Shown: positions 1 to 20,149 of the stretch, in pieces
How the letters are laid out: every line of letters starts with the position of its first letter
How positions within the stretch are numbered: position 1 is the first letter of the stretch
Source of the DNA: a virus
Reading direction: 5' to 3' (one strand)
DNA: 25,168 nucleotides
Virus record (IMG/VR): IMGVR_UViG_3300042523_000629
Span: 1-25,168 of that record
Position numbers and translations under genes: made by a program
The notes under the pieces: generated by a model
Databases searched by the model: none
What the model saw: only the letters and a program-made list of their open reading frames with translations
What the model was told of the DNA's origin: nothing

Positions 1-101
1 TAGATGTCCAGGCCGCCCACAGTGTACATTTCACTAATAGTGCGGTCAAAAAATTGGTAGTCTCTTGTGCGATTTGGGCGGTATAAACTTAGGCGTGGCA
101 T
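1..101 (-). CDS. Possible neck protein (T4 gp14-like), N-terminal fragment
   Basis: The minus strand opens with an ATG at 101 and stays open to the window edge, giving 33 residues. It begins MPRLSLYRPNRTRDYQ and contains SEMYTVGGLDI. From memory of related aquatic T4-like phages, this type of N terminus belongs to a structural neck protein placed at the gp14 position, but only a fragment is visible, so the product name is an inference. The gene is divergent from the + strand gene starting at 157. The box CATAAATA lies on the minus strand at 115-108, six bases before the ATG, and no Shine-Dalgarno sequence is visible. This matches the short-leader pattern seen at other late genes in the window. 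Confidence 0.6.
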   Translation of the reverse strand, partial: MPRLSLYRPNRTRDYQFFDRTISEMYTVGGLDI

Positions 102-107
102 AACATA

Positions 108-115
108 TATTTATG
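108..115 (-). promoter_or_regulatory. T4-late-type promoter box CATAAATA
   Basis: Read on the minus strand this is CATAAATA, one base from the T4 late promoter consensus TATAAATA. It lies six bases before the ATG of the divergent gene. A late start point about six to seven bases downstream would put +1 at or beside the start codon. The match is short and A/T-rich, so this is a moderate call. Confidence 0.45.
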
Positions 116-116
116 G

Positions 117-144
117 GCAGGTTGACCAGTAATTCCCAACCTGC
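117..144. repeat. 8-bp inverted repeat over the -35 box, possible operator
   Basis: GCAGGTTG (117-124) and CAACCTGC (137-144) are perfect inverted copies separated by 12 bases. The left arm overlaps the -35 hexamer at 122-127 and the right arm touches the -10 hexamer. In a divergent intergenic region this placement suits a repressor or activator binding site. It could also form a hairpin in RNA coming from the minus-strand side. No binding protein can be named. Confidence 0.5.
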
Positions 145-150
145 TATACT
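122..150 (+). promoter_or_regulatory. Sigma70-type promoter TTGACC-N17-TATACT
   Basis: The -35 box TTGACC (122-127) and -10 box TATACT (145-150) are spaced by exactly 17 bases, and TGC before the -10 makes an extended -10. The expected start point is about 157, which is the A of the downstream ATG, so the message may be leaderless. The whole element resembles the promoter at 415-443, including its spacer. Confidence 0.75.
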
Positions 151-156
151 TTGGGT

Positions 157-432
157 ATGAAAGTAGTAAAATTAAACCGCAGATTCCGCCAATATAAAAA
201 ACACGGGCATGTGATTGCTGTGCGATGTGATAGTTGGCTTGGGGAAGGCGTTCCTCTTGAAAAAATATGCGATACCAAACTGGGAGCCCAGGGCTACATG
301 CCCGACAATGACTGGCATGCATATTTTGGCAAGGCCAATGGGTATGGTCGTCGCCCGTTTTGGATCACATTCCGCCGGGAATCAGATCTTACTTTAGTAC
401 TACTTTCTGCCCAATTGACCAATAAATCCTAA
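157..432 (+). CDS. Unrecognised small protein, probably early
   Basis: This encodes 91 residues beginning MKVVKLNRRFRQYKKHG. I do not recognise the family. It has a basic N terminus and a Trp- and aromatic-rich middle (for example NDWHAYFGKANGYGRRPFW). I chose the ATG at 157; an in-frame TTG at 151 would add two residues but overlaps the predicted start of transcription. No Shine-Dalgarno sequence is visible, and the strong promoter at 122-150 puts +1 at or next to this ATG. A host-like promoter suggests early expression. The last codons overlap the next gene's promoter (-35 at 415-420), so the two genes are separately started. Confidence 0.7.
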   Translation: MKVVKLNRRFRQYKKHGHVIAVRCDSWLGEGVPLEKICDTKLGAQGYMPDNDWHAYFGKANGYGRRPFWITFRRESDLTLVLLSAQLTNKS

Positions 433-443
433 CGTGCTATAAT
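415..443 (+). promoter_or_regulatory. Sigma70-type promoter TTGACC-N17-TATAAT
   Basis: TTGACC (415-420), a 17-base spacer and a perfect TATAAT (438-443) with an upstream TGC (extended -10). The -35 lies inside the end of the preceding gene. The predicted start near 450 leaves a leader of about 20 bases carrying AGGAG at 461-465. It matches the promoter at 122-150 at 24 of 30 aligned positions, spacer included. Confidence 0.8.
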
Positions 444-470
444 ACACACTTGTTCACTACAGGAGTCCGT

Positions 471-761
471 ATGCAAAAGGCAGCAAATTTTGTTGCAAAG
501 TACTCTACTGCCAACAAGTCCAAGGCTGTACTGCCCTATGACAAAATAAAAGCCACAGAAAAATGGCTGGAGTACAGCCTGGACATTGTTGACATGAATA
601 AAATTTTGATGAAGTCAGATTTCAACACCAAATGGCAATTGATGGAGGCATTGGACATTGCAGAACGCAAACGCAAATACATGTACAACCACAAAAACTT
701 TGAACTCAAACGTGCCATGCGTTTGTTTGACCTCTGCCGAAATTTAACTACAAATAAGTAA
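471..761 (+). CDS. Unrecognised small basic helical protein
   Basis: This encodes 96 residues starting MQKAANFVAKYSTANKSKAV. The ATG at 471 is chosen because AGGAG at 461-465 sits five bases upstream; an ATG at 450 in the same frame lies at the predicted transcription start and has no ribosome site. The protein is Lys- and Arg-rich and predicted mostly helical (DIAERKRKYMYNHKNFELKRAM), with no motif that I can assign. It is the second gene behind a strong host-type promoter and is followed after eight bases by a larger unrecognised gene. A DNA- or RNA-associated early protein would fit the charge, but that is a guess. Confidence 0.75.
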   Translation: MQKAANFVAKYSTANKSKAVLPYDKIKATEKWLEYSLDIVDMNKILMKSDFNTKWQLMEALDIAERKRKYMYNHKNFELKRAMRLFDLCRNLTTNK

Positions 762-769
762 GGACACAC

Positions 770-1903
770 ATGAGCACCACATTCAAAATTAAACTGCTAA
801 ACCCCCGCAGTTCCGACACCAACATCTTGGGCATGGAGCCAACTTGGCAAGTCCAGCCCACAGAGTATCGCACCAGCCGATTGAGCAAAGCATTCTCCTG
901 GTACAACTATTTCTACGGAAAAAAAGATGCCCGGGATATGATTGTGAACTACCTGGAAGCACATGACCGCAAGGCAGATGTGCGTCTGCTCAAAGGAATC
1001 CCAGACTCAGCAATTCGACTGACCACAGGTTGGCTGTGCCGCATGAGCATGGTGGGCTTGGAATTGCATGACGCAGAACAACTCAAATTGCAAAACCAAT
1101 TGAGAGAAATACTAGACAGCAAGCAAAACGAAGTGACAGAAGTCACAGAAGAGCCTGCTGTGGCCAAACCCAACATTCAGGACCGCCTGCGTGAAAAAGC
1201 GTCAGAGTGCAACGGTGAACTGGATGGCATGTTTGACGAGTTCATGTTGAGCGGCGCCAAAATGACCGCAGACTTCAAGCCTGTCACAATCATGCGTGGA
1301 CTGAATGTAGCACCGCAAATGATCAGCCAAATTGCCGACAACTGGAAACGCAAACTCACAGAGTTTGAAACAGTGGCGGAAGGTAAGGATGCACAACTGG
1401 TAGAAGCCTACAGTTACCTCTCCAAAATACAACTGCGCAATGTGATCAAGTTTTGCGAGGCAGTAGTAAATGACTGCGGTGCTTATGTACAGATCAAGAA
1501 AGTGGAACGCAAGCCACGCAAGATCCGGGCAGTGCCACCAGAGAAACGTGCGGCCAAGTTCAAGATTCTAGCAGAGTTTGCAGAGCTCAAACTCAAAAGC
1601 CAGCCAGCCGCAAGCCTTGTGGACAAATCTGAAGCTTGGTTGTATGACAGCAAAAAACGCAAGCTCATCCACCTTGTGGCAGACAGTCATACACAGGCAT
1701 TCACTGTAAAGAACAACTCCGTCATTGGGTTTTCAACTGTGGAAACAGTACAAAAGACTCTGCGCAAGCCAGCAGAACAGCTCAAGGGCATTGTGGGGGC
1801 AGGTAAGCCGGCAGCTCGCAAAGCATTCAAGGATATCAAAGCCACAGAAACTGCATGGAATGCCCGTGGCACAGAGAATTTGATCATCCTTAAAAGCTGG
1901 TAA
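770..1903 (+). CDS. Conserved-looking phage protein of unknown function
   Basis: This encodes 377 residues starting MSTTFKIKLLNPRSSDTN. GTAAGGAC at 759-766 supplies a Shine-Dalgarno sequence for the ATG at 770. The N-terminal third has an ordered look (TWQVQPTEYRTSRLSKAFSWY, then a Tyr/Asp-rich helix region). An acidic linker lies near residues 115-130 (NEVTEVTEEP). The second half is basic and Lys-rich (VQIKKVERKPRKIRAVPPEK), which would suit nucleic-acid binding. I recall similar proteins in environmental T4-like phage contigs but know of no assigned role. The stop codon is part of GGTAAATA, the possible late box for the radical SAM gene that follows after eight bases. Confidence 0.75.
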   Translation: MSTTFKIKLLNPRSSDTNILGMEPTWQVQPTEYRTSRLSKAFSWYNYFYGKKDARDMIVNYLEAHDRKADVRLLKGIPDSAIRLTTGWLCRMSMVGLELHDAEQLKLQNQLREILDSKQNEVTEVTEEPAVAKPNIQDRLREKASECNGELDGMFDEFMLSGAKMTADFKPVTIMRGLNVAPQMISQIADNWKRKLTEFETVAEGKDAQLVEAYSYLSKIQLRNVIKFCEAVVNDCGAYVQIKKVERKPRKIRAVPPEKRAAKFKILAEFAELKLKSQPAASLVDKSEAWLYDSKKRKLIHLVADSHTQAFTVKNNSVIGFSTVETVQKTLRKPAEQLKGIVGAGKPAARKAFKDIKATETAWNARGTENLIILKSW

Positions 1904-1906
1904 ATA
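1899..1906 (+). promoter_or_regulatory. Possible late promoter box GGTAAATA
   Basis: TAAATA at 1901-1906 resembles the right part of the T4 late box TATAAATA. It ends five bases before the ATG at 1912, where no Shine-Dalgarno sequence is seen. The TAA is also the stop codon of the preceding gene, so chance cannot be excluded; the repeated arrangement elsewhere in the window is the argument for it. Confidence 0.35.
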
Positions 1907-1911
1907 TCGGC

Positions 1912-2874
1912 ATGCAATTTATTCCAGACGAGGATCCAAGTGATCCTCGTGTCTTTGTGCCCAATGTTGAATTTTACATAACCAATGTTTGTAATTTGGC
2001 CTGTCCAGATTGCAATCGATTCAACAATCATAATTTTCGTGGCTGGCAAGATTGGCACGACTATGCAGAACAATATCAACAATGGGCCAAGTATATCAAA
2101 CTGCAACGGATAACTATCCTTGGTGGAGAACCATTGTTGAATCCCTCTATATGTGATTGGATCGATGGAATCAATCAATTGTGGGGTAAAACAGTCCAAA
2201 TACTCACAAACGGAACCCGTTTAAATCATGTGCCAAATTTGTATGACCGCATGATTAAATTTCACGATCCGGCTTTGCCTTGGAAAAAAAACTGGATTGG
2301 AGTTAGCATACACAATGAAAACGATAGACAACGATGCTTTGATGAAATACGCAAGTTTCTTAAAGGCACAATCACCTATCATGCAAAAACTGATCTCAAC
2401 AATGAAGATAATGCAGTGACTTATGGTGCAAATCATGCATTTATAGACAGCAATGGCATGAGAATATGTGTATGGGAATACGATTCTTTTTACAAGGCCT
2501 CAATACAACAAAATACTCAAGGTAAATTTATTTTATGGGACAATGATCCAGTTGAATCGCACAACCAGTGCGGGTTTGTGCTAAACAAATGCTATCATTT
2601 TATAAAAGCCAAATTATACAAATGCGGTCCAGTGGCGTTATTTCCTGAGTTTGATCAACAGCACCACTTAAATATAACTGATCAGGACCGTGAACTGATC
2701 AATGGGTATCAGCCACTGAGTGTTGATCAGTTTGATCAAAGAGGTAAAGTATTTTTAGATCATATAGATGATGTAATCCCTCAGTGTAAATTTTGTCCAA
2801 ATGGCAGTCAGTTTGCGGGCAAAAAAATATTTGCAGTAAGCAAAAAAATTAATTCAGTTAGTGGGTTTGATTGA
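1912..2874 (+). CDS. Radical SAM protein with C-terminal auxiliary Cys cluster
   Basis: This encodes 320 residues. The radical SAM signature CNLACPDC gives Cys27, Cys31 and Cys34 for the [4Fe-4S] cluster that cleaves S-adenosylmethionine, and LGGEPLLNP is the conserved SAM-contact segment. Later cysteines (CGFVLNKCYHF, KLYKCG and a final CKFCPNG) look like a SPASM/twitch-type auxiliary cluster, usual in enzymes acting on peptides or other larger substrates. The reaction is unknown. It is followed directly by an SGNH hydrolase, the same pairing as at 19004-20901. The coding sequence looks richer in A and T than the genes on either side, which may indicate separate acquisition. No Shine-Dalgarno sequence precedes the ATG; a TAAATA box ends five bases upstream. 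Confidence 0.85.
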   Translation: MQFIPDEDPSDPRVFVPNVEFYITNVCNLACPDCNRFNNHNFRGWQDWHDYAEQYQQWAKYIKLQRITILGGEPLLNPSICDWIDGINQLWGKTVQILTNGTRLNHVPNLYDRMIKFHDPALPWKKNWIGVSIHNENDRQRCFDEIRKFLKGTITYHAKTDLNNEDNAVTYGANHAFIDSNGMRICVWEYDSFYKASIQQNTQGKFILWDNDPVESHNQCGFVLNKCYHFIKAKLYKCGPVALFPEFDQQHHLNITDQDRELINGYQPLSVDQFDQRGKVFLDHIDDVIPQCKFCPNGSQFAGKKIFAVSKKINSVSGFD

Positions 2875-2875
2875 T

Positions 2876-3541
2876 ATGAAAACAGTATTATTGACTTTTG
2901 GAGACAGTTGGCCACAAGGGGTGGAGCTTGGCGATGGAAAACGCTATGGTGAAATTCTACAAGAACAAATGAAGTTTGATGAATTTTATAACTATGGTCT
3001 TGGCGGCACTAGCAATGAACACATGCTACGACAATTGCAAAAATACGTTGATGAGCATCACACGCCCGACCACAAAACAACTGCAATTTTTTTCTTGACA
3101 AATCCACACCGCACTGCGTACTGGCCCCATGATTCAGATTTCAATGTAAACGGTCACCAACGTCAACACTGGAACGACGAAGCCAAACAAGTGTTTATGA
3201 AAACATGGTTGCATTTTCACACAGATGAAATTACTGTGATGAGATCAAGTTTGAGTGTTTGTGCATTGCAAAGCTGGTGCAAACGTTGCGGTATAGACGA
3301 TTATTATTTTTCTGGTTGGGTAAAATACCCCACTTGGTTGCCGTGTGTGGACACTGATAAAATTTGGGCGCAAGGAACAGAAACTGTAGCTGATTGGTTT
3401 GGTGCTCCAGATCACAACGGTGAAAATTTATATAACGTAGAAAACAATCCCTATATTCGACCCAACTTTTGCCACCCAAATCAGCTAGGACATCAACTTA
3501 TAGCTGATCGGTTGCAGGGTTGGATACAGTCTACGCAATAA
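2876..3541 (+). CDS. SGNH/GDSL-family hydrolase-like protein
   Basis: This encodes 221 residues. I chose the ATG at 2876, one base after the preceding stop, over an upstream GTG at 2861 that would add five residues. The N terminus MKTVLLTFGDSWPQG carries the GDS block with Ser11 as nucleophile. GLGGTSNEHM fits the conserved glycine block, and HPNQLGHQLIADRL near the C terminus holds the catalytic His. The Asp normally three residues before that His is Asn here (NFCHPN), so the triad may be incomplete. SGNH enzymes remove or transfer acyl groups on sugars, lipids or peptides. No signal peptide is visible, so action is probably cytoplasmic. It likely works with the adjoining radical SAM enzyme. 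Confidence 0.75.
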   Translation: MKTVLLTFGDSWPQGVELGDGKRYGEILQEQMKFDEFYNYGLGGTSNEHMLRQLQKYVDEHHTPDHKTTAIFFLTNPHRTAYWPHDSDFNVNGHQRQHWNDEAKQVFMKTWLHFHTDEITVMRSSLSVCALQSWCKRCGIDDYYFSGWVKYPTWLPCVDTDKIWAQGTETVADWFGAPDHNGENLYNVENNPYIRPNFCHPNQLGHQLIADRLQGWIQSTQ

Positions 3542-3544
3542 ATA
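3537..3544 (+). promoter_or_regulatory. Late-type promoter box AATAAATA
   Basis: AATAAATA differs from the T4 late consensus TATAAATA at one base and lies 18 bases before the gp13-like start codon. It overlaps the stop codon of the preceding gene. Confidence 0.45.
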
Positions 3545-3545
3545 C

Positions 3546-3562
3546 AGGGACACGGAGTCCCT
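3546..3562 (+). promoter_or_regulatory. Hairpin presenting the ribosome site before the gp13-like gene
   Basis: AGGGAC (3546-3551) pairs with GTCCCT (3557-3562) around the loop ACGGA, and the start codon follows immediately at 3563. The GGAG ribosome site straddles the loop and the 3' arm. With six base pairs it is short, but its placement against the start codon could modulate translation. Confidence 0.45.
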
Positions 3563-4330
3563 ATGGCAGAACAGCAAGACACACTTTCTCAGCTCAAACA
3601 AAATCTCATTGAGTATGCACAGCTTCAGCTGGGCAGTCAAATCATTGATTTGGAACTAGACCCATCCCACTACGAAGCTGCATATACCAAAACAATTGGC
3701 ACTTACCGCCAACGAGCCAACAATGCTTACGAGGAAAGTTACAGTTTTTTCACCCTGGTCAAGGATGAAAACATCTACACCCTGCCACAAGAAGTGGTAA
3801 GTGTGCGCCAGTGTTTTCGTAGAACATTTGGCGATTCCACAGGACCTTATGCCTCAAACTTTGACCCGTTTGCACAGGCTTCGTTGAATGTTTACTTGAT
3901 GAACTTCAACGTGGCTGGTGGTCTTGCCACATACGATTTCTACAGCCAGTATGTTGAGTTGGCAGGCCGAATGTTTGGCGCCTATTTCAATTACACATTC
4001 AACCCTGTTACTAAGAAGCTACAGTTGATCCGTGATCCTAAAAACACAGGTGAAGCTGTGTTGATTTGGACTTACAATTTGAAGCCTGAAATCAATCTAT
4101 TAAGCGACTACCAAATTTCACAGTGGATCCGTGACTACATGGTAGCCAGCTGTAAGATGATCATTGGTGAAGCCCGTGAAAAGTTTGGTACTATTGCTGG
4201 CCCACAGGGCGGTGGCACCCTAAATGGCACTGCCATGAAAGCTGAAGCCAAAACAGCGCAGGACGAGCTGATCGGCCAACTGGTCAATTATGTGGATGCC
4301 AGTCAGCCACTGACCTGGGTAATTGGTTAA
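3563..4330 (+). CDS. 13: Neck / head-tail connector protein, T4 gp13-like
   Basis: This encodes 255 residues starting MAEQQDTLSQLKQNLIEYAQ. The N-terminal layout, an opening helix followed by LGSQIIDLELDPSHYEAAY and then an aromatic beta segment with YTLPQEVVSVRQCFRR, fits the connector/neck proteins that close the filled head and join it to the tail. The C-terminal half has WIRDYMVASCKMIIGEAR and a Gly-rich loop (AGPQGGGTLNG) before a final helix, which I associate with gp13-type proteins. T4 gp13 is about 309 residues, so this one is somewhat short. The name rests on memory of family patterns. It starts one base after the hairpin at 3546-3562. It is followed by a separate early-type transcription unit. 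Confidence 0.6.
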   Translation: MAEQQDTLSQLKQNLIEYAQLQLGSQIIDLELDPSHYEAAYTKTIGTYRQRANNAYEESYSFFTLVKDENIYTLPQEVVSVRQCFRRTFGDSTGPYASNFDPFAQASLNVYLMNFNVAGGLATYDFYSQYVELAGRMFGAYFNYTFNPVTKKLQLIRDPKNTGEAVLIWTYNLKPEINLLSDYQISQWIRDYMVASCKMIIGEAREKFGTIAGPQGGGTLNGTAMKAEAKTAQDELIGQLVNYVDASQPLTWVIG

Positions 4331-4337
4331 TACAGCA

Positions 4338-4366
4338 TAGACACACAGTCATAAATCTGTTATAAT
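4338..4366 (+). promoter_or_regulatory. Sigma70-type promoter TAGACA-N17-TATAAT
   Basis: TAGACA (4338-4343) and a perfect TATAAT (4361-4366), with TGT in front, are spaced by 17 bases. The predicted start is about 4373, which is the A of the exonuclease ATG. It drives the nucleotide-metabolism pair in the middle of a late region, as expected for early genes. Confidence 0.75.
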
Positions 4367-4372
4367 CATCAC

Positions 4373-4894
4373 ATGGACTTGATGATTGATCTTGAAGGCT
4401 TGGGAACAGGCCCTGACACTACTATTCTTACCATTGCCGCCCAGGCATTTGATCCGTTTGGCTCTGGCCACTACGAGCAATCATTTTACGCCAGAGTCAC
4501 ACTGGAAAGCCAAGAAACTCGTAGCATACAACAAGGCACTATAGAGTGGTGGGCCACACAACCTGCTGTGGTGCGTGACGAAGCGTTTGCTGAAGAAGAC
4601 CGCATACCATTAGATCAAGCACTAGATGGCTTGGCCAAGTTAATATGGCATGCCAAACGAATCTGGGCCCAGGGCCCAACTTACGACATGAACATCCTGG
4701 AACATGCTTACAAGAGCTACAACAAACCCTTGCCCTGGCAATACTACATGGTGCGGGACAGCCGCACGGTGTTTAGTTTATGGCCCGATCAGCCCATGCC
4801 TCCTACCACTCACCATGCCTTAGAAGACTGCCGCAGACAAATTGGCATGCTACAAAATACACTTAAATACCTCAACGTTCGGGAGTTAAAATGA
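4373..4894 (+). CDS. dexA: DEDD-family 3'-5' exonuclease, DexA / Rv2179c-like
   Basis: This encodes 173 residues. The first Exo motif is MIDLEGLGTGP with Asp6 and Glu8. A second acidic motif is TYDMN with Asp105. The final Exo III-type motif HHALEDC carries His148 and Asp152. These supply the two-metal active site of a DEDDh-type 3'-5' exonuclease. The compact size and the WWATQPA segment resemble Rv2179c-like ribonucleases and T4 exonuclease A (DexA, 227 residues), so the symbol is tentative. The role would be degradation of host nucleic acid or RNA turnover. No Shine-Dalgarno sequence is visible before the ATG, which coincides with the predicted transcription start. The end overlaps the dNMP kinase start by ATGA, showing translational coupling. 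Confidence 0.8.
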   Translation: MDLMIDLEGLGTGPDTTILTIAAQAFDPFGSGHYEQSFYARVTLESQETRSIQQGTIEWWATQPAVVRDEAFAEEDRIPLDQALDGLAKLIWHAKRIWAQGPTYDMNILEHAYKSYNKPLPWQYYMVRDSRTVFSLWPDQPMPPTTHHALEDCRRQIGMLQNTLKYLNVRELK

Positions 4895-5553
4895 TCATTG
4901 GCATCTGTGGATTCATTGGGTCTGGCAAGGACACTATTGCTGACTACCTTGTAAATTTGCACCACTTTCGCAGAGAAAGTTTTGCAAGTACCTTAAAAGA
5001 CGCTGTGGCACAAGTGTTTGGATGGGATAGAACCATGCTGGAAGGGCGCACAAAACAAGCCCGTGAATGGCGCGAGCGTGTGGATCCATGGTGGGCAGAG
5101 CGCCTGGGCATGCCCACACTAACACCACGTTGGATCTTGCAGTACTGGGGCACAGAAGTATGCAGAGCAGGATTTCATGATGACATCTGGATTGCCAGCT
5201 TGGAAAACAAACTGCGTCACAGCCAGGATGATGTGGTGATTTCAGACTGCCGTTTCCCCAATGAAATTCTGGCCATTAAAAACACTGGCGGGCGTGTGAT
5301 TCGTGTGGTACGCGGACCCGAGCCTGCTTGGTATAATGCGGCTGTGAGTGTTAACCGTGGCCCAACTGGCAACTCAACCTGGGCACTAAGTCAACGTAAA
5401 TTGGAAAAACAAGGCATTCACGCATCAGAAACTGCCTGGGTAGGAACTGAGTTTGACGCTGTGTTAGATAACAATGGCACCCTAGACGACTTGTATCAGC
5501 AAGTTAAAAATCTGGTTCAAGATCGCCCTGTCGCCACGGAAGATCGCTCTTAG
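4891..5553 (+). CDS. 1: Deoxynucleoside monophosphate kinase, T4 gp1-like
   Basis: This encodes 220 residues. MIIGICGFIGSGKDTIADYL carries the P-loop GFIGSGKD at residues 7-14. ILQYWGTEVCRAGFHDDIWI and VVISDCRFPNE match the nucleotide and acceptor-binding segments of phage dNMP kinases (T4 gp1 has LMQALGTD and VVPDTRQ at these places). The enzyme phosphorylates dNMPs to dNDPs for phage DNA synthesis in the cytoplasm. Length is close to T4 gp1 (241 residues). It is translationally coupled to the upstream exonuclease. Its last 50 bases overlap the end of the convergent HNH-like gene. Confidence 0.88.
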   Translation: MIIGICGFIGSGKDTIADYLVNLHHFRRESFASTLKDAVAQVFGWDRTMLEGRTKQAREWRERVDPWWAERLGMPTLTPRWILQYWGTEVCRAGFHDDIWIASLENKLRHSQDDVVISDCRFPNEILAIKNTGGRVIRVVRGPEPAWYNAAVSVNRGPTGNSTWALSQRKLEKQGIHASETAWVGTEFDAVLDNNGTLDDLYQQVKNLVQDRPVATEDRS

Positions 5554-5884
5554 ACAGCTCTACTTCACAGTTTCTACAAACTGATTTGAGATTTTTGAGT
5601 CCAGTATTGTTCAAGTCTCCATCTGTGTGATACACAAAGATCTGTCCAGCATACTTGGCTTTAAATCCACAACGATCACAGCTCATTTTTTTCTTATAGC
5701 CTGCTGATTTCCAGCGTGGTTCTCGGGGCTTGAGTCCCCGTCCTTTTCTAGCACAGTTCTCACACCTTGATCGATAGTGTGTGACATCTTCGCGAATGTA
5801 GTTCACAGCACAAGGGCGCTGGTGGCAGGCTTGACAAATGGGTCTCATACGGTATTTAGCGGCATGGACCTTTGCCAAAGGCAT
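5504..5884 (-). CDS. HNH-like zinc-finger protein, possible homing endonuclease
   Basis: This minus-strand gene encodes 126 residues. Three CxxC pairs stand out: CQACHQRPC, CENC and CDRC, with a late CRNC. HTDGDLNNTGLKNLKSVC resembles the N-H core of HNH nucleases, where a His/Asp pair is followed by the conserved Asn and zinc-binding CxxC. Small proteins of this type are common single-gene insertions in T4-like phages. It is the only minus-strand gene inside this + strand stretch and overlaps the 3' end of the dNMP kinase by 50 bases. No Shine-Dalgarno sequence precedes the ATG. Whether it is an active endonuclease or a zinc-binding regulator cannot be told. Confidence 0.75.
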   Translation of the reverse strand: MPLAKVHAAKYRMRPICQACHQRPCAVNYIREDVTHYRSRCENCARKGRGLKPREPRWKSAGYKKKMSCDRCGFKAKYAGQIFVYHTDGDLNNTGLKNLKSVCRNCEVELSKSDLPWRQGDLEPDF

Positions 5885-5912
5885 TCAAAACGGCTGTTTT
5901 TTTCAAGGTCTC

Positions 5913-5920
5913 TATAAATA
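5913..5920 (+). promoter_or_regulatory. T4 late promoter, perfect TATAAATA
   Basis: An exact TATAAATA lies 24 bases before the tail sheath ATG and is followed by a GGA-type ribosome site (AAAAGGATT at 5931-5939). This is the best late-promoter match in the window and sits before the gene needed in largest amount. Confidence 0.8.
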
Positions 5921-5944
5921 TTAGAACTTGAAAAGGATTCAACC

Positions 5945-8900
5945 ATGGCTCTCACATCACCCGGCGTACAAGTAACAGTAATTGACGAAAGTCAGTATAT
6001 TCCATCAGCAGTCAACACAGTACCATACTTTGTAATTGCAACAGCACAGAACAAAGTATCTGGTGCTGGAGTTGGAGTAGCAGCTGGTACCACAGCAGCT
6101 AACGCTAACAAAACATATTTAATCACCAGTCAGCGTGATCTTAGTGCCACATTTGGGGTGCCATTCTTCTATAACACAACCACTGGCACTCCAATCAATG
6201 GTTACGAACTCAACGAATACGGCTTGTTGGCTGCTTACAGCTCATTGGGCATTTCAAATCGTGCTTATGTTCAGCGTGTGGACATTGATTTGACTGAACT
6301 TACAGCCAGCTTGACCCGCCCAACAGGATCACCAGCTGATGGTGCATATTGGCTAGATACTTCTACTTCTGTTTGGGGCATCCAAGAATGGAACCAAACC
6401 ACATCAACATTTACAGTGAAAACACCACTGTTGATTACTGACAGTGCCGATGTAGTAGAAAGCACCAGTGGTGTAACTGGACAAACAGTTTACACTCCTC
6501 TTAACACAGTAGGCAGCATTGGTGATTACGCTATTGTATCACTTGGTGGTACCGAAGCTATTTGGAACGTGGGCTGGTATAAGAATTCTGATAACGTTTG
6601 GGTTTCAGTTGGCGGTGCAGCATGGCAAGCATCTTGGCCTACAATCCAAGGTTCTGTGACCAATCCCACACTCACAGCAGGACAAAGTATTTTTATTAAT
6701 GACACTTCTGTAGCTGTGCCTGCTATTCCATCCAACACCTTGGCTGGATTTGTTGCCGCAGTTAATGCAGCAGCCATAACAGGTGTGACTGCTGCGGCTG
6801 TTGATGGAACATTTGTGATATACGCAGATGATACTGCAACCAACGATGGCAGTACTGCTACTGGCGGTATTGTTAGCATTGAACCCAATGCCAGCGGTGC
6901 TGCATTGTGTACTGCTCTTGGTATTCAAGCAATTGAATATTTGGCTCCAATCTTTTTTGCTGGATACAGTTATCAAGCACCACGTTGGAGAACCACAGAT
7001 ACTTTAGGTGGCAGACCCACTGGATCAGTTTGGAATAACATCAGTCCAGCCAATAATGGCTTGGCAGTTCAACTAAAACAATACAGTGCTACTCTAGGAG
7101 AATGGGTGTTGCAAAGTTGTCCTGCATTCCTTACCACAACTGCTGCAATCAATTCTTTTGATTCCACAGGTGGTGGAAGAAATATTCCAGTTGGTACATT
7201 GTTTGTGCAACCTGTTGCTAACTCTGCAGAAACATCACCAATGACTTCAATGGGATTTGAATTTTATAGACAAACTGCATTTGGTCAAACCATAGTTACA
7301 GGTACTACAACTCCAGGTGCCAATGGCGATGCATTGTTTGTTGCTGGTAATAAATTTACATTGGGCGGGTCAGTAGCTGGAAGTACAGTCACTAACACTG
7401 CTACAATTACATTGAGTGGTACCAGTATTGCCAGTTTTATTGCTGACGTCAGTGCAGCCAATATTCCTTATGTATCAGCCAGTGTAAATTCAGCTGGTAA
7501 TATTGTGTTCACACACAGCCAAGGCGGCATTATGTCATTGGCAGCAGTGTCTGGGTTTGGAACTCCAATTACCACAGCCGGGTTTAGCACAACTACCCCG
7601 TTTGTTCGTTTGGCAATTGGTGATTACACAACATTGATATTGTCTAACTTCTGTAGCGATCCAGAATTTGAATACACTTCCAGTTCTACAGCGCCTTACC
7701 AGGATCCTGCTGATGGCAGATTGTGGTACTACTCTACTCCAAGTCAAGTTGACATCATGATTCAAAATGCTGGACAATGGAGAGGTTATCAGAACGTTAC
7801 CAATGATGTTCGAGGGTATGATTTGACACAAACAAATGCCAGCGGTCCAATCTGTGCTGCTACAGCACCTGTCACACAAAATGATGTGTCAGCCAGTGCT
7901 TTGGTGTATGGTGATTTGTGGGTGGACACTAGTGACTTGGAAAATTATCCCAAGTTGTATCGTTGGGAATCTGTAAGCGGTGTGGATCAGTGGGTATCTG
8001 TTGATACTACAGATCAAGTCACACAGAATGGTGTGTTGTTTGCTGATGCTCGTTGGGCACCAAATGGCACAACAGATCCTATTGCAGATCCAATTCCAAC
8101 CATTGTGAGTTTGCTGACCAGCAACTATTTGGATTTGGATGCGCCAGATCCTGCACTATATCCACAAGGTATGTTGTTATGGAACACACGCCGTTCAGGT
8201 TATAATGTCAAGAGCTATCAAAGTGATTACTTTAATGCTACCACATTCCCCGATGACACATTGCCAGCAGTAACCAGTACATGGCTCACAGCATCAGGTA
8301 ACAAACAAGACGGCAGCATGTATGCAGGTCGACTAGCGCAACGTCAAATGATTGTGGCAGCAATGAGATCAGGGTTAGATACCAGTTTGGGTGCTAGAGA
8401 AGATACTGCACAATACACACTGATTGCAACACCTGCGTATCCAGAATTGATTCCTAACATGATTGCACTTAGCAACGAGCGCAACAACACATTGTTTGTG
8501 GTTGGTGATACTCCGATGCGTTTGCCTGGCACAGGTACTGACATCACAACTTGGGCTACCAACAACAATGGGTTGGGCACTGTGGCCGGTGATGGGCAAT
8601 CAGCTACCAGTAACTACGCTGCTACATTCTACCCAAGTTGTACAACTGTAGACTTGAGTGGGAATACTGTGGTAACAGCACCAAGTCACATGATGGTTAG
8701 AACAATCATTCGCAGTGACGAAGTGAGCTATCCATGGCTGGCACCAGCTGGTACACGCCGTGGTGTGGTAGACAATGCCACACAACTTGGTTATATTAAC
8801 GGAGCTACAGGTGAGTTTGTGCCAATTGGTGTGAATCAAGGCTTGCGTGATGTGTTGTACAGTTTGAATGTTAATCCAATTACATTCATTCCAGGTGTGG

Positions 8901-17304: not shown

Positions 17305-18453
17305 ATGAGCAATTTCTTTTGCGCAGCCCCTTGGCGTGGCTTGCATATCAATCCCAGAGGTGACGTTAAAACTTGCTGTGCTGGCAATCCCAACCTGCTG
17401 GGCAATCTCAATACACAAACAATTGAGCAGATCCTTAACTCAAATCTCATGACAGAGATACGCACCAGTTTGGCCCAAGGTGAACCGCACGAATACTGTT
17501 CTAACTGTGTGCGAGCCGAACGCTTTGGTGCAGATTCTGAACGCCAGTGGCACAACAATGTGAATCCCAACTTTGACTATGCCACTGCTGGTGATCAGTA
17601 TCATTATCCTGTGATTGTGGATGTGCGATGGAATACCACATGTAACTTGAGTTGCAACTACTGTGGCGAGTCATGCAGTTCAAAATGGGCCAGCCTCAAA
17701 GGCGTTCCATTCAAGTCAGGTGCAAGACCTTATTATGATAGTGTATGCGACTTCATTGAACAGCACTATGAACACATACACGAAGTAGCACTTGTAGGTG
17801 GCGAGCCACTGTTGCTGCCAGAAAACAATAGACTGTTAGATGTCATTCCTAAAGATGCTATTGTTACACTGATCACAAACTTGAATGTGGACTTGGATTC
17901 AAACAAGATATTCCAAAAGTTATCAACACGCAATCGAGTCGGCTGGTCAATGAGCTTTGACAATGTAGGTGACCGCGTGGAATATGTGCGCCATGGTGCC
18001 AGCTGGGTGTTGATCAAAGAAAACTTGAGTAAGATCAAACATCTCATGACCACGCAAGGTCAATGGGGCGGTATACATGCAGTATACAACATTTACAATG
18101 CCACACGCATCTGTGAGTTAAGACAGTTTGCTGAAGATACAGGAACCACAGTGCTGTGGCAAAACTTATTTCAACCTGAGCACCTTGATCCGTTCTTGCA
18201 TGGTGCTGGTGTTGCGCGGGAAGCCATAGCAGAGATTGAACGTTTCTATGAGATGAATATTGCCACACCTGCTGAACGCCAATTCTTTGATAATGCATTG
18301 GCCACTTATCGCAATAGATTGGGTGAAAACAAAGTCAGCACTATTGACACAGCATTCTTCAAGCACATACATGACAATGAAACTCGGTATCATCCAGATA
18401 AAGCTGGAGAGTTTGAACGTTTATGGCCGGAACTGGCATTCCTATGCAAATAA
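17305..18453 (+). CDS. Radical SAM protein with N-terminal twitch/SPASM-like Cys region (copy A)
   Basis: This encodes 382 residues. An N-terminal auxiliary region FCAAPWRGLHINPRGDVKTC with CCAG, followed by GNLNTQTIEQILNS and YCSNC, has the SPASM/twitch pattern that is more often found at the C terminus. The radical SAM core follows with CNLSCNYC (Cys113, Cys117, Cys120) and VGGEPLLLP near 165. The last third lacks more clusters. SPASM/twitch enzymes usually act on peptides or carbohydrate-like substrates; the substrate here is unknown. The gene at 19004 is a paralog with the same domain order and nearly the same length. It overlaps the 2OG oxygenase start by ten bases. Confidence 0.87.
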   Translation: MSNFFCAAPWRGLHINPRGDVKTCCAGNPNLLGNLNTQTIEQILNSNLMTEIRTSLAQGEPHEYCSNCVRAERFGADSERQWHNNVNPNFDYATAGDQYHYPVIVDVRWNTTCNLSCNYCGESCSSKWASLKGVPFKSGARPYYDSVCDFIEQHYEHIHEVALVGGEPLLLPENNRLLDVIPKDAIVTLITNLNVDLDSNKIFQKLSTRNRVGWSMSFDNVGDRVEYVRHGASWVLIKENLSKIKHLMTTQGQWGGIHAVYNIYNATRICELRQFAEDTGTTVLWQNLFQPEHLDPFLHGAGVAREAIAEIERFYEMNIATPAERQFFDNALATYRNRLGENKVSTIDTAFFKHIHDNETRYHPDKAGEFERLWPELAFLCK

Positions 18454-19007
18454 CACCTGTTGACGAATATAACAATCTTTTTGAAGTAAAAGATATAGTG
18501 TCTCCAGAGCTTGTGGAAAAAGTGCTGACTACCTCATGGTTAGATTTGCCCTGGATACGACAAGAAGGACAAGAACATTGGTTACGTCGGCGTATTTTAA
18601 CTGATAGTATCCCCTGGACTAGAGAGTGGGACGACCATATAAACACAATATGGTCTAAAGTAGGAGAAGTCATTGGAAGAAAATTAGAAGTATCATATGG
18701 TTCTACCTGGTGGCTGGACGAGCCAGGATTTACATGTTTGATGCACACTGATGGTGAGTTGTCTGGAGCCATGCAGCTGAATTGGATTGCTGCTCATGAG
18801 CAACTGGGAACTTGTTTTTATCACAATAAGAATGGAGCTCCAGTAAGAAAACAATTTTTATCCATACCAAACACTGGTTACATAATGTTAAATTTTCCTA
18901 GAAAAAACGAGTATACTCATTTACACTGGCATGCAATGTTAAGCGAAGTACCACCAGGAACTTTTAGACTAAGTAGCTATACCTTATTATCACCATCAAC
19001 CCAATGA
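18444..19007 (+). CDS. 2-oxoglutarate/Fe(II)-dependent oxygenase-like protein
   Basis: This encodes 187 residues from the ATG at 18444; an upstream ATG at 18423 would add seven residues and deepen the overlap with the preceding gene. MHTDGELSG gives the iron ligands His101 and Asp103, and HLHWH (residues 159-163) gives the distal His. Arg175 in GTFRLSSY, 12 to 16 residues later, is placed to bind the 2-oxoglutarate carboxylate. Spacing fits the double-stranded beta-helix hydroxylases. The target could be a protein side chain or a small molecule. It sits between two paralogous radical SAM genes and overlaps both (ATGA at its end), so co-production and a shared pathway are likely. Confidence 0.75.
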   Translation: MQITPVDEYNNLFEVKDIVSPELVEKVLTTSWLDLPWIRQEGQEHWLRRRILTDSIPWTREWDDHINTIWSKVGEVIGRKLEVSYGSTWWLDEPGFTCLMHTDGELSGAMQLNWIAAHEQLGTCFYHNKNGAPVRKQFLSIPNTGYIMLNFPRKNEYTHLHWHAMLSEVPPGTFRLSSYTLLSPSTQ

Positions 19008-20149
19008 TAACCAAAAGCCCCACATTTTGTCCAGCACCCTGGACCAGTCTCAACATAGATCAAACTGGTCTAGTAATGCCATGTTTTCACACTGGTTATG
19101 AATTAGGTAATATCAAACGCATGCCTATTCAACAAGTGTTAGAAGACAAACCAATTAAAGACATAAGACAGACTATGGCCCGTGGCGAATGGCATGAAGC
19201 ATGTGCTTGGTGCAAACGTCTAGAAGAAACTACAGGTGCCAGCGGAAGAACAGTGCGGCACGCCAGCGTAGAAACGTTGGCTGCCATTGATGCTGATATA
19301 GATTTTTTCAAACTAGAGCATTTGGTAGTTAATTGGAGTAATCTTTGCAATTTAACTTGTGTGTATTGCAACGATCAAACATCAACTGCTTGGCAAAGCA
19401 TTAGAAAAATTCCCATCAATCATGTTAAAAACGAACATGATGATTTGATTGAATTGGCCAAGACACAAGGTCATAACATTCAAGGCTTGTGCCTTGGAGG
19501 TGGTGAGCCACTGCTGCAAAAAGGGCTTGATGTATTTTTAAGTCATCTCAATCCTAACACAGTATCAGTAATGGTCACAACCAATCTCAGTATGGAAATC
19601 ACAACTAATCCTATCTATCAAATACTCAAAACATGGCCCAAGGTAGAATGGATGGTCAGCTTTGACAACGCCAACAAAGAAAAGTTTGAATACGTAAGAG
19701 ACCGAGCAAATTGGGAACAGTTTGTAAAAAATTTGCGACAAATGAAACAAGATGGTCAACACGTAAATGCACATCCTGCGTACAGCATTTATTGTGCATT
19801 GGATATCATTGAATACTATGATTTTTGTATTGCAGAAGAGTTAGGCATCTATTGGTGCGAACTCAATCATCCAATGGAACTAGACATACGAAGACATTCT
19901 CAAACATTACGAGACTTGGCTGTTGCAGAAATCAATCAAGTGATAGATAAGTATGGCGACAGAAGAAATTTAGCAATAGATGTTTTAAAAACTTATCGTA
20001 ACACATTACAAGATAATAGTTATCTTAGAGACCAAACAAATTTTAAACCATCAAAAACGTTGGCATGGCACTTAGAAATAGAAAACACGTTGAAAAAAAC
20101 AAACAAGTTTGTTGAGTTATGGCCAACACTAGCAAAGGAAATGCAATGA
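19004..20149 (+). CDS. Radical SAM protein with N-terminal twitch/SPASM-like Cys region (copy B)
   Basis: This encodes 381 residues. FCPAPWTSLNIDQTGLVMPC opens an N-terminal auxiliary Cys region closed by CAWC, followed by the radical SAM motif CNLTCVYC (Cys115, Cys119, Cys122) and LGGGEPLLQKG. LGNIKRMPIQQVLEDKPIKD aligns with LGNLNTQTIEQILNSNLMTE of copy A, so these are diverged tandem paralogs separated by the oxygenase gene. The first Cys pair of copy A (CC) is Cys-Phe here, so the auxiliary clusters may differ. Start and stop codons overlap both neighbours by ATGA. The coding sequence looks richer in A and T than gp17 downstream. Confidence 0.87.
   Translation: MITKSPTFCPAPWTSLNIDQTGLVMPCFHTGYELGNIKRMPIQQVLEDKPIKDIRQTMARGEWHEACAWCKRLEETTGASGRTVRHASVETLAAIDADIDFFKLEHLVVNWSNLCNLTCVYCNDQTSTAWQSIRKIPINHVKNEHDDLIELAKTQGHNIQGLCLGGGEPLLQKGLDVFLSHLNPNTVSVMVTTNLSMEITTNPIYQILKTWPKVEWMVSFDNANKEKFEYVRDRANWEQFVKNLRQMKQDGQHVNAHPAYSIYCALDIIEYYDFCIAEELGIYWCELNHPMELDIRRHSQTLRDLAVAEINQVIDKYGDRRNLAIDVLKTYRNTLQDNSYLRDQTNFKPSKTLAWHLEIENTLKKTNKFVELWPTLAKEMQ

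Follow-up and report, generated by a model that had tools for sequence, protein, structure and literature searches.

The DNA analysed here, called the window, comprises positions 1 to 25,168 of the IMG/VR virus record IMGVR_UViG_3300042523_000629. Near its left end two promoter copies and two small genes, g1 and g2, lie between a divergent gene (g0) and a longer gene (g3); these features and a second promoter–gene pair further downstream are listed in Table 1.

Table 1. Promoters and genes at the left end of the window and around its exonuclease gene
Feature	Position	Strand	Remarks
g0, 5' part; divergent, fixed left gene, runs off the window	1..101	-	left of the module region in 20/21 records
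T4-late-like box CATAAATA before g0	108..115	-	see text
Promoter copy 1	122..150	+	-35 TTGACC 122-127; TG 142-143; -10 TATACT 145-150; predicted +1 at 157 (from spacing only)
g1, 91 aa, predicted leaderless (ATG at +1)	157..432	+	no PHROG/Pfam match
Promoter copy 2	415..443	+	-35 TTGACC 415-420; TG 435-436; -10 TATAAT 438-443; predicted +1 at about 450
Predicted 21-nt leader of g2	450..470	+	AGGAG at 461-465, read from sequence
g2, 96 aa, SD-led	471..761	+	no PHROG/Pfam match; cargo gene, present or absent among relatives
g3, 377 aa, fixed right gene	770..1903	+	phrog_11903; anchor for the locus comparison
σ70-type promoter TAGACA-17-TATAAT with TG	4338..4366	+	lacks the conserved spacer; +1 predicted at 4373
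Gene for a 173-aa exonuclease, the other gene in the window predicted to be leaderless (ATG at +1)	4373..4894	+	phrog_255 exonuclease, PF16473

The original prediction of two like promoter segments is borne out. Positions 121–150 and 414–443 share 24 of 30 bases, and both copies are of the σ70 type, defined as TTGACA-like and TATAAT-like hexamers separated by 16–18 bp: they agree with the hexamers at 10 and 11 of 12 positions, respectively, and each has a 17-bp spacer and a TG preceding the -10 element. On the plus strand of the window, only positions 122 and 415 match copy 1 with up to five mismatches, the next best site having 11. A degenerate pattern made from the two copies (up to three mismatches, both strands of the 25,168-base record) likewise found these two sites only, and its reversed control found none. 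The further claim that the copies bracket the gene at 157–432 needs correction in that copy 2 overlaps the 3' end of g1; its -35 element is therefore coding, and the g1 stop codon (430–432) lies within its spacer. A feature absent from that prediction is that the ATG at 157 is the seventh base past the last -10 base of copy 1, which is the predicted transcription start. Copy 1 is predicted to serve a leaderless start and copy 2 an SD-led one. No terminator-like hairpin adjoins the pair, and neither Rfam (window 1–2000) nor megablast against a phage collection (window 1–8000) gave a match.

Proteins encoded in the window, among them a tail sheath, tail tubes and a large terminase, resemble those of T4-like myoviruses. 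T4-late-like NATAAATA boxes occur at 3537, 5913, 9313, 12483, 22461 and 24963 (plus strand) and at 115 (minus strand). Several of them lie directly ahead of structural genes, for example those for a tail sheath (5945) and a tail tube (9340), and they form a class separate from the 29-bp promoters. Three radical-SAM-like genes (1912–2874, 17305–18453 and 19004–20149) are situated amid the structural-gene region.

The window is a member of an uncultured clade of jumbo myoviruses. Among named phages, PA5oct, Phosso and Atu_ph07 come closest to it in terminase sequence (50–55% identity); in the contigs in which a terminase was found (n = 9), identity to that of the window is 74–96%, except for G007 with 59%. 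A phage-encoded multisubunit RNA polymerase was rejected, as an RNA polymerase β' domain was found in none of 12 records (control, 14 of 14). Host RNA polymerase is therefore the likely enzyme. The 29-bp motif had no match in a collection of one genome per bacterial or archaeal species and hence gave no clue to the host.

A scan for further copies, proposed with the original prediction, revealed dispersed copies before small genes, with the spacer conserved among relatives. The degenerate pattern occurs exactly in 24 IMG/VR stretches, mostly at the same locus in relatives, L005, L010, L012 and L018 representing another locus. Ten contigs, which were reached by virtue of holding the pattern, contain 53 copies with up to three mismatches (18, 15, 6, 3, 2, 1, 4, 2, 1 and 1), confined to one strand within each contig, and the reversed pattern has no match in any of the ten. 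A looser pattern is present in at least 119 stretches, and six further contigs, also chosen for holding the pattern, carry 5–16 copies each. The pair in the window belongs to a large family of near-identical promoters driving small interchangeable genes. A second family of promoters with a shared spacer, about TTGACTTYTTGYWGYRRTAAGTATATACT, was noticed at L037:2830, L068:4037 and L071:12456, where it precedes predicted leaderless genes of 287, 489 and 373 aa.

Conservation of the spacer was assessed in an ascertainment-free set of sites picked by TTGAC-N18-TATAMT alone, ignoring the spacer. Such sites number 21–44 per contig in seven of eight clade contigs and five in the shortest one, and almost all of them share a strand; the reversed pattern has 0–2 matches per contig. 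Spacer information was scored in the fetched stretches of contigs with at least 16 sites, a seventh contig having too few: the 18 bases between the hexamers carry 11.1–14.5 bits versus 3.9–4.7 bits at random (z 10–12) in all six contigs. In named relatives the value is near random in three of four (z 0.7 in PA5oct, 0.2 in GAP32, 0.2 in PBECO4 and 2.2 in SCTP-2). Spacer columns reach 0.3–1.3 bits in the 115 sites with an extended -10 TG and mostly 0–0.5 bits in the 46 others. Upstream flanks hold about 0–0.3 bit except for a GG at the last two positions before the -35 element, and downstream conservation is confined to the start site and the SD leader. Small spacer-sharing groups were also seen in named jumbo phages: one, about GTTAGCCCC, occurs in GAP32 and XbC2, PBECO4 has one that resembles it, and SCTP-2 has GAGGGTAATATTTATAGA-like spacers (sites of these groups: NC_019401.1 8793 and 10657; OP292654.1 15967; NC_027364.1 183669; MF360958.1 240648, 415109, 423867 and 110337).

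The likeness of the copies can be read in several ways. That the likeness merely combines the coding sequence at the end of g1 with the usual hexamers would be compatible with the overlap of copy 2 and the last g1 codons, but it is refuted by dispersed copies without a single reversed-pattern match and by the high spacer information obtained without ascertainment, and we give it practically no credence. The original prediction had left a choice between duplication and a protein that reads the spacer, and a constrained spacer fits better. If a promoter unit had recently been copied around the genome, its spacer would be alike for want of time and no reader would be required. Promoter copies do recombine, given that modules are swapped at the locus (see below). 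However, the flanks are unlike, the mean difference over the 29 bases is 6.5–7.5 within a genome versus 6.8–8.0 between genomes, and the same spacer recurs in contigs whose terminases are 59–80% identical to that of the window. Because flanks differ and distances within genomes approximate those between them, recent duplication alone is insufficient, and we regard it as improbable; recombination at the promoters is indicated to take place in addition.

Alternatively, the spacer could be an operator in which a phage DNA-binding protein, bound inside the spacer and overlapping the -35 element, turns all of these promoters on or off in concert. This would agree with the -35 sequence TTGACC in the conserved-spacer class, other promoters of the same contigs favouring TTGACA, and with two occurrences of CCAAT at a distance of 10 bp (p 0.012 for this one shift). 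Over all shifts tested, however, p rises to 0.19, so that a CCRAT direct repeat with a 10-bp period was rejected. A reader of the OmpR type was rejected as well, its C-terminal domain being absent from 12 of 12 records, and no candidate protein was found. We consider an operator possible but rather doubtful.

We think it quite probable that the pair represents dispersed, strong σ70-type promoters, most likely early ones, whose spacer is read, whose modules are swapped and from which messages start in two forms. Across the clade, promoters in front of unrelated genes have the whole 29-bp sequence in common, spacer included, but not the flanks. Host RNA polymerase would use these promoters soon after infection, an early timing predicted from sequence. 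Conservation of the spacer may reflect its recognition by a component of the initiation complex, most probably the host holoenzyme, which a protein injected by the phage might modify or assist. The repeated promoter would provide homology at which promoter–gene modules are gained, lost and swapped, and transcripts would begin with a short SD leader in some cases and with the ATG itself in others, the latter being leaderless mRNAs. It is tempting to go further and to propose that a spacer code labels the promoters of this clade and is read by a factor the phage carries, that the promoters move as one-gene modules, and that the same promoter is used in an SD-led and a leaderless form, such that many genes are translated leaderless during infection; we offer this extended version as speculation that is more apt to fail than to hold.

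The idea of a promoter–gene module gained support from the window's own locus, which was compared in 21 distinct records having g3 (P denotes a promoter copy). Relatives hold zero, one or two cargo genes there, usually each with its own promoter copy. The order P-g1-P-g2-g3 of the window is found in eight records and, cut by a contig end, in one more. Four records have P-g3, and P-g2-g3 and P-g2-P-g3 occur once each. In three records the order is P-x-P-g3, x being an 89-aa gene; single records show P-x'-P-g2-g3, with an 81-aa gene x' that resembles x, and P-47-aa gene-P-g2-g3, and a distant contig has two other small genes with a promoter copy each. The only record lacking g0 on the left is a contig cut at its end, and in three (L008, L025 and L125) g0 is set apart by further DNA. 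These arrangements indicate that promoter–gene modules get swapped at the locus. The promoter unit itself is not fixed: the copies in L213 and L238, the two records whose cargo includes x' or the 47-aa gene, are weak matches that differ at 5–7 of 25 scored positions.

For many of these promoters, the predicted start of the message coincides with the first codon of a gene. Among 161 hexamer-defined promoters of six contigs, an ATG lies 6 nt past the -10 element in 44, compared with four at offset 5 and one at offset 7; as a first ATG it is at offset 6 in 27 of 115 TG promoters and 12 of 46 non-TG promoters. Since the start place favours AT generally, ATG was compared with ATA at +1: of the 44 promoters with ATG, 14 are followed by an SD-led start within 60 nt, as against 43 of the 46 with ATA (p 5e-10). 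In a larger collection, which includes orthologues and comprises 619 distinct sites, ATG occurs 132, 15 and 6 times at offsets 6, 5 and 7, and 94 of the 132 open a frame of at least 40 aa with no SD start thereafter (31 families). Homologues retain the start at +1 to differing degrees, namely in 14 of 15, 12 of 12, 11 of 15 (for the exonuclease of the window) and 8 of 10 (for g1) distinct homologues, whereas other predicted leaderless families do so in just 5 of 23, 4 of 20 and 1 of 17 by a fixed 6-nt test that overlooks starts at 5 nt. One of the remaining two g1 homologues has no start in place, and the other (41% identical) is SD-led. The +1 positions are predicted from the spacing of sequence elements; about 7 nt after the -10 element, where transcription would begin, an AT preference and the ATG peak are seen.

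At the T4-late-like boxes, ATG at +1 shows no more than a weak excess, and leaderless starts there were set aside. In PA5oct, it is at offset 6 in three of 16 hexamer-defined promoters, and leaderless starts were rejected for this phage, as the annotated genes at those sites start elsewhere or are absent. Initiator tRNAs are marked by a G-C run, which the five tRNA-Met genes inspected lack; the idea that an initiator tRNA encoded by the phage assists leaderless translation was rejected. Long proteins of 405 and 377 aa from two genes predicted to be leaderless (L078:552, minus strand, and L099:3100, plus strand) appear to open with a lipoprotein-like signal and then a run of glycines.

Several known systems invite comparison. 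PeSL (promoter early stem-loop) elements are reported from T4-like phages (Arbiol et al. 2010; Comeau et al. 2014; cited in PMC4503421). They resemble the present system in being repeated promoter elements between small genes and in their association with gene shuffling among related phages, as in the cargo swaps across our 21 records. Unlike in PeSL elements, a stem-loop is not a regular part here: terminator-like hairpins were detected in 15 of 108 upstream flanks (mean 7.0, maximum 13 in shuffles of these flanks), and a terminator as a fixed part of the unit was rejected. The conserved spacer and the many copies that start predicted leaderless genes are further differences. T4 early promoters are strong and host-type, with -35, TGn and -10 elements and further consensus regions (PMC2988021), and provide a precedent for consensus beyond the hexamers; the promoters described here differ in sequence and lack UP-like upstream conservation save for the GG just before the -35 element. 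Named jumbo relatives (PA5oct, Atu_ph07, GAP32, PBECO4 and others) have homologous terminase and tail sheath proteins, and several have hexamer-type promoters, yet the motif is found in none of nine with up to three mismatches.

Leaderless mRNAs are known from bacteria and phages. In Burkholderia cenocepacia, 72 genes have a start site exactly at the start codon (PMC4603805), and λ cI is an example of a leaderless mRNA (PMC9031893). A leaderless gene is defined by a start codon at the 5' end of its mRNA and by the lack of an SD, and the predicted positions accord with this. As in bacterial leaderless mRNAs, the start codon would lie at the 5' end, with the -10 motif directly upstream; unlike these, the cases described here are predicted from sequence alone, and for many genes of one phage clade. 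The novelty is tempered by a passing remark in another paper that phage transcripts are often leaderless (PMC5312081). No paper on the 29-bp promoters, or on leaderless genes being widespread in these phages, was found in the open-access literature. The family supplies a sequence tag by which the promoters, and with them the likely early genes, of a large jumbo-phage clade without cultured members can be recognized. At one locus, modules gained and lost form a natural series, and leaderless starts are predicted for many phage genes; together these make spacer reading by RNA polymerase and leaderless translation in infection testable. Should the copies be ordinary strong promoters only, they would still constitute a clear PeSL-like system without the stem-loop.

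Contigs of the clade also carry tmRNA genes marked tmRNA* by ARAGORN, a sign of the permuted form (L230:2616-3134, L243:14148-14593 and L245:11405-11850). Two of the tmRNA tags, ANDSQFALAA and ANDEKFLMAA, look betaproteobacterial to us and presumably hint at the host. A dense tRNA array is located at L245:547-13194, where ARAGORN identified 31 tRNA genes as well as one tmRNA within 16 kb.
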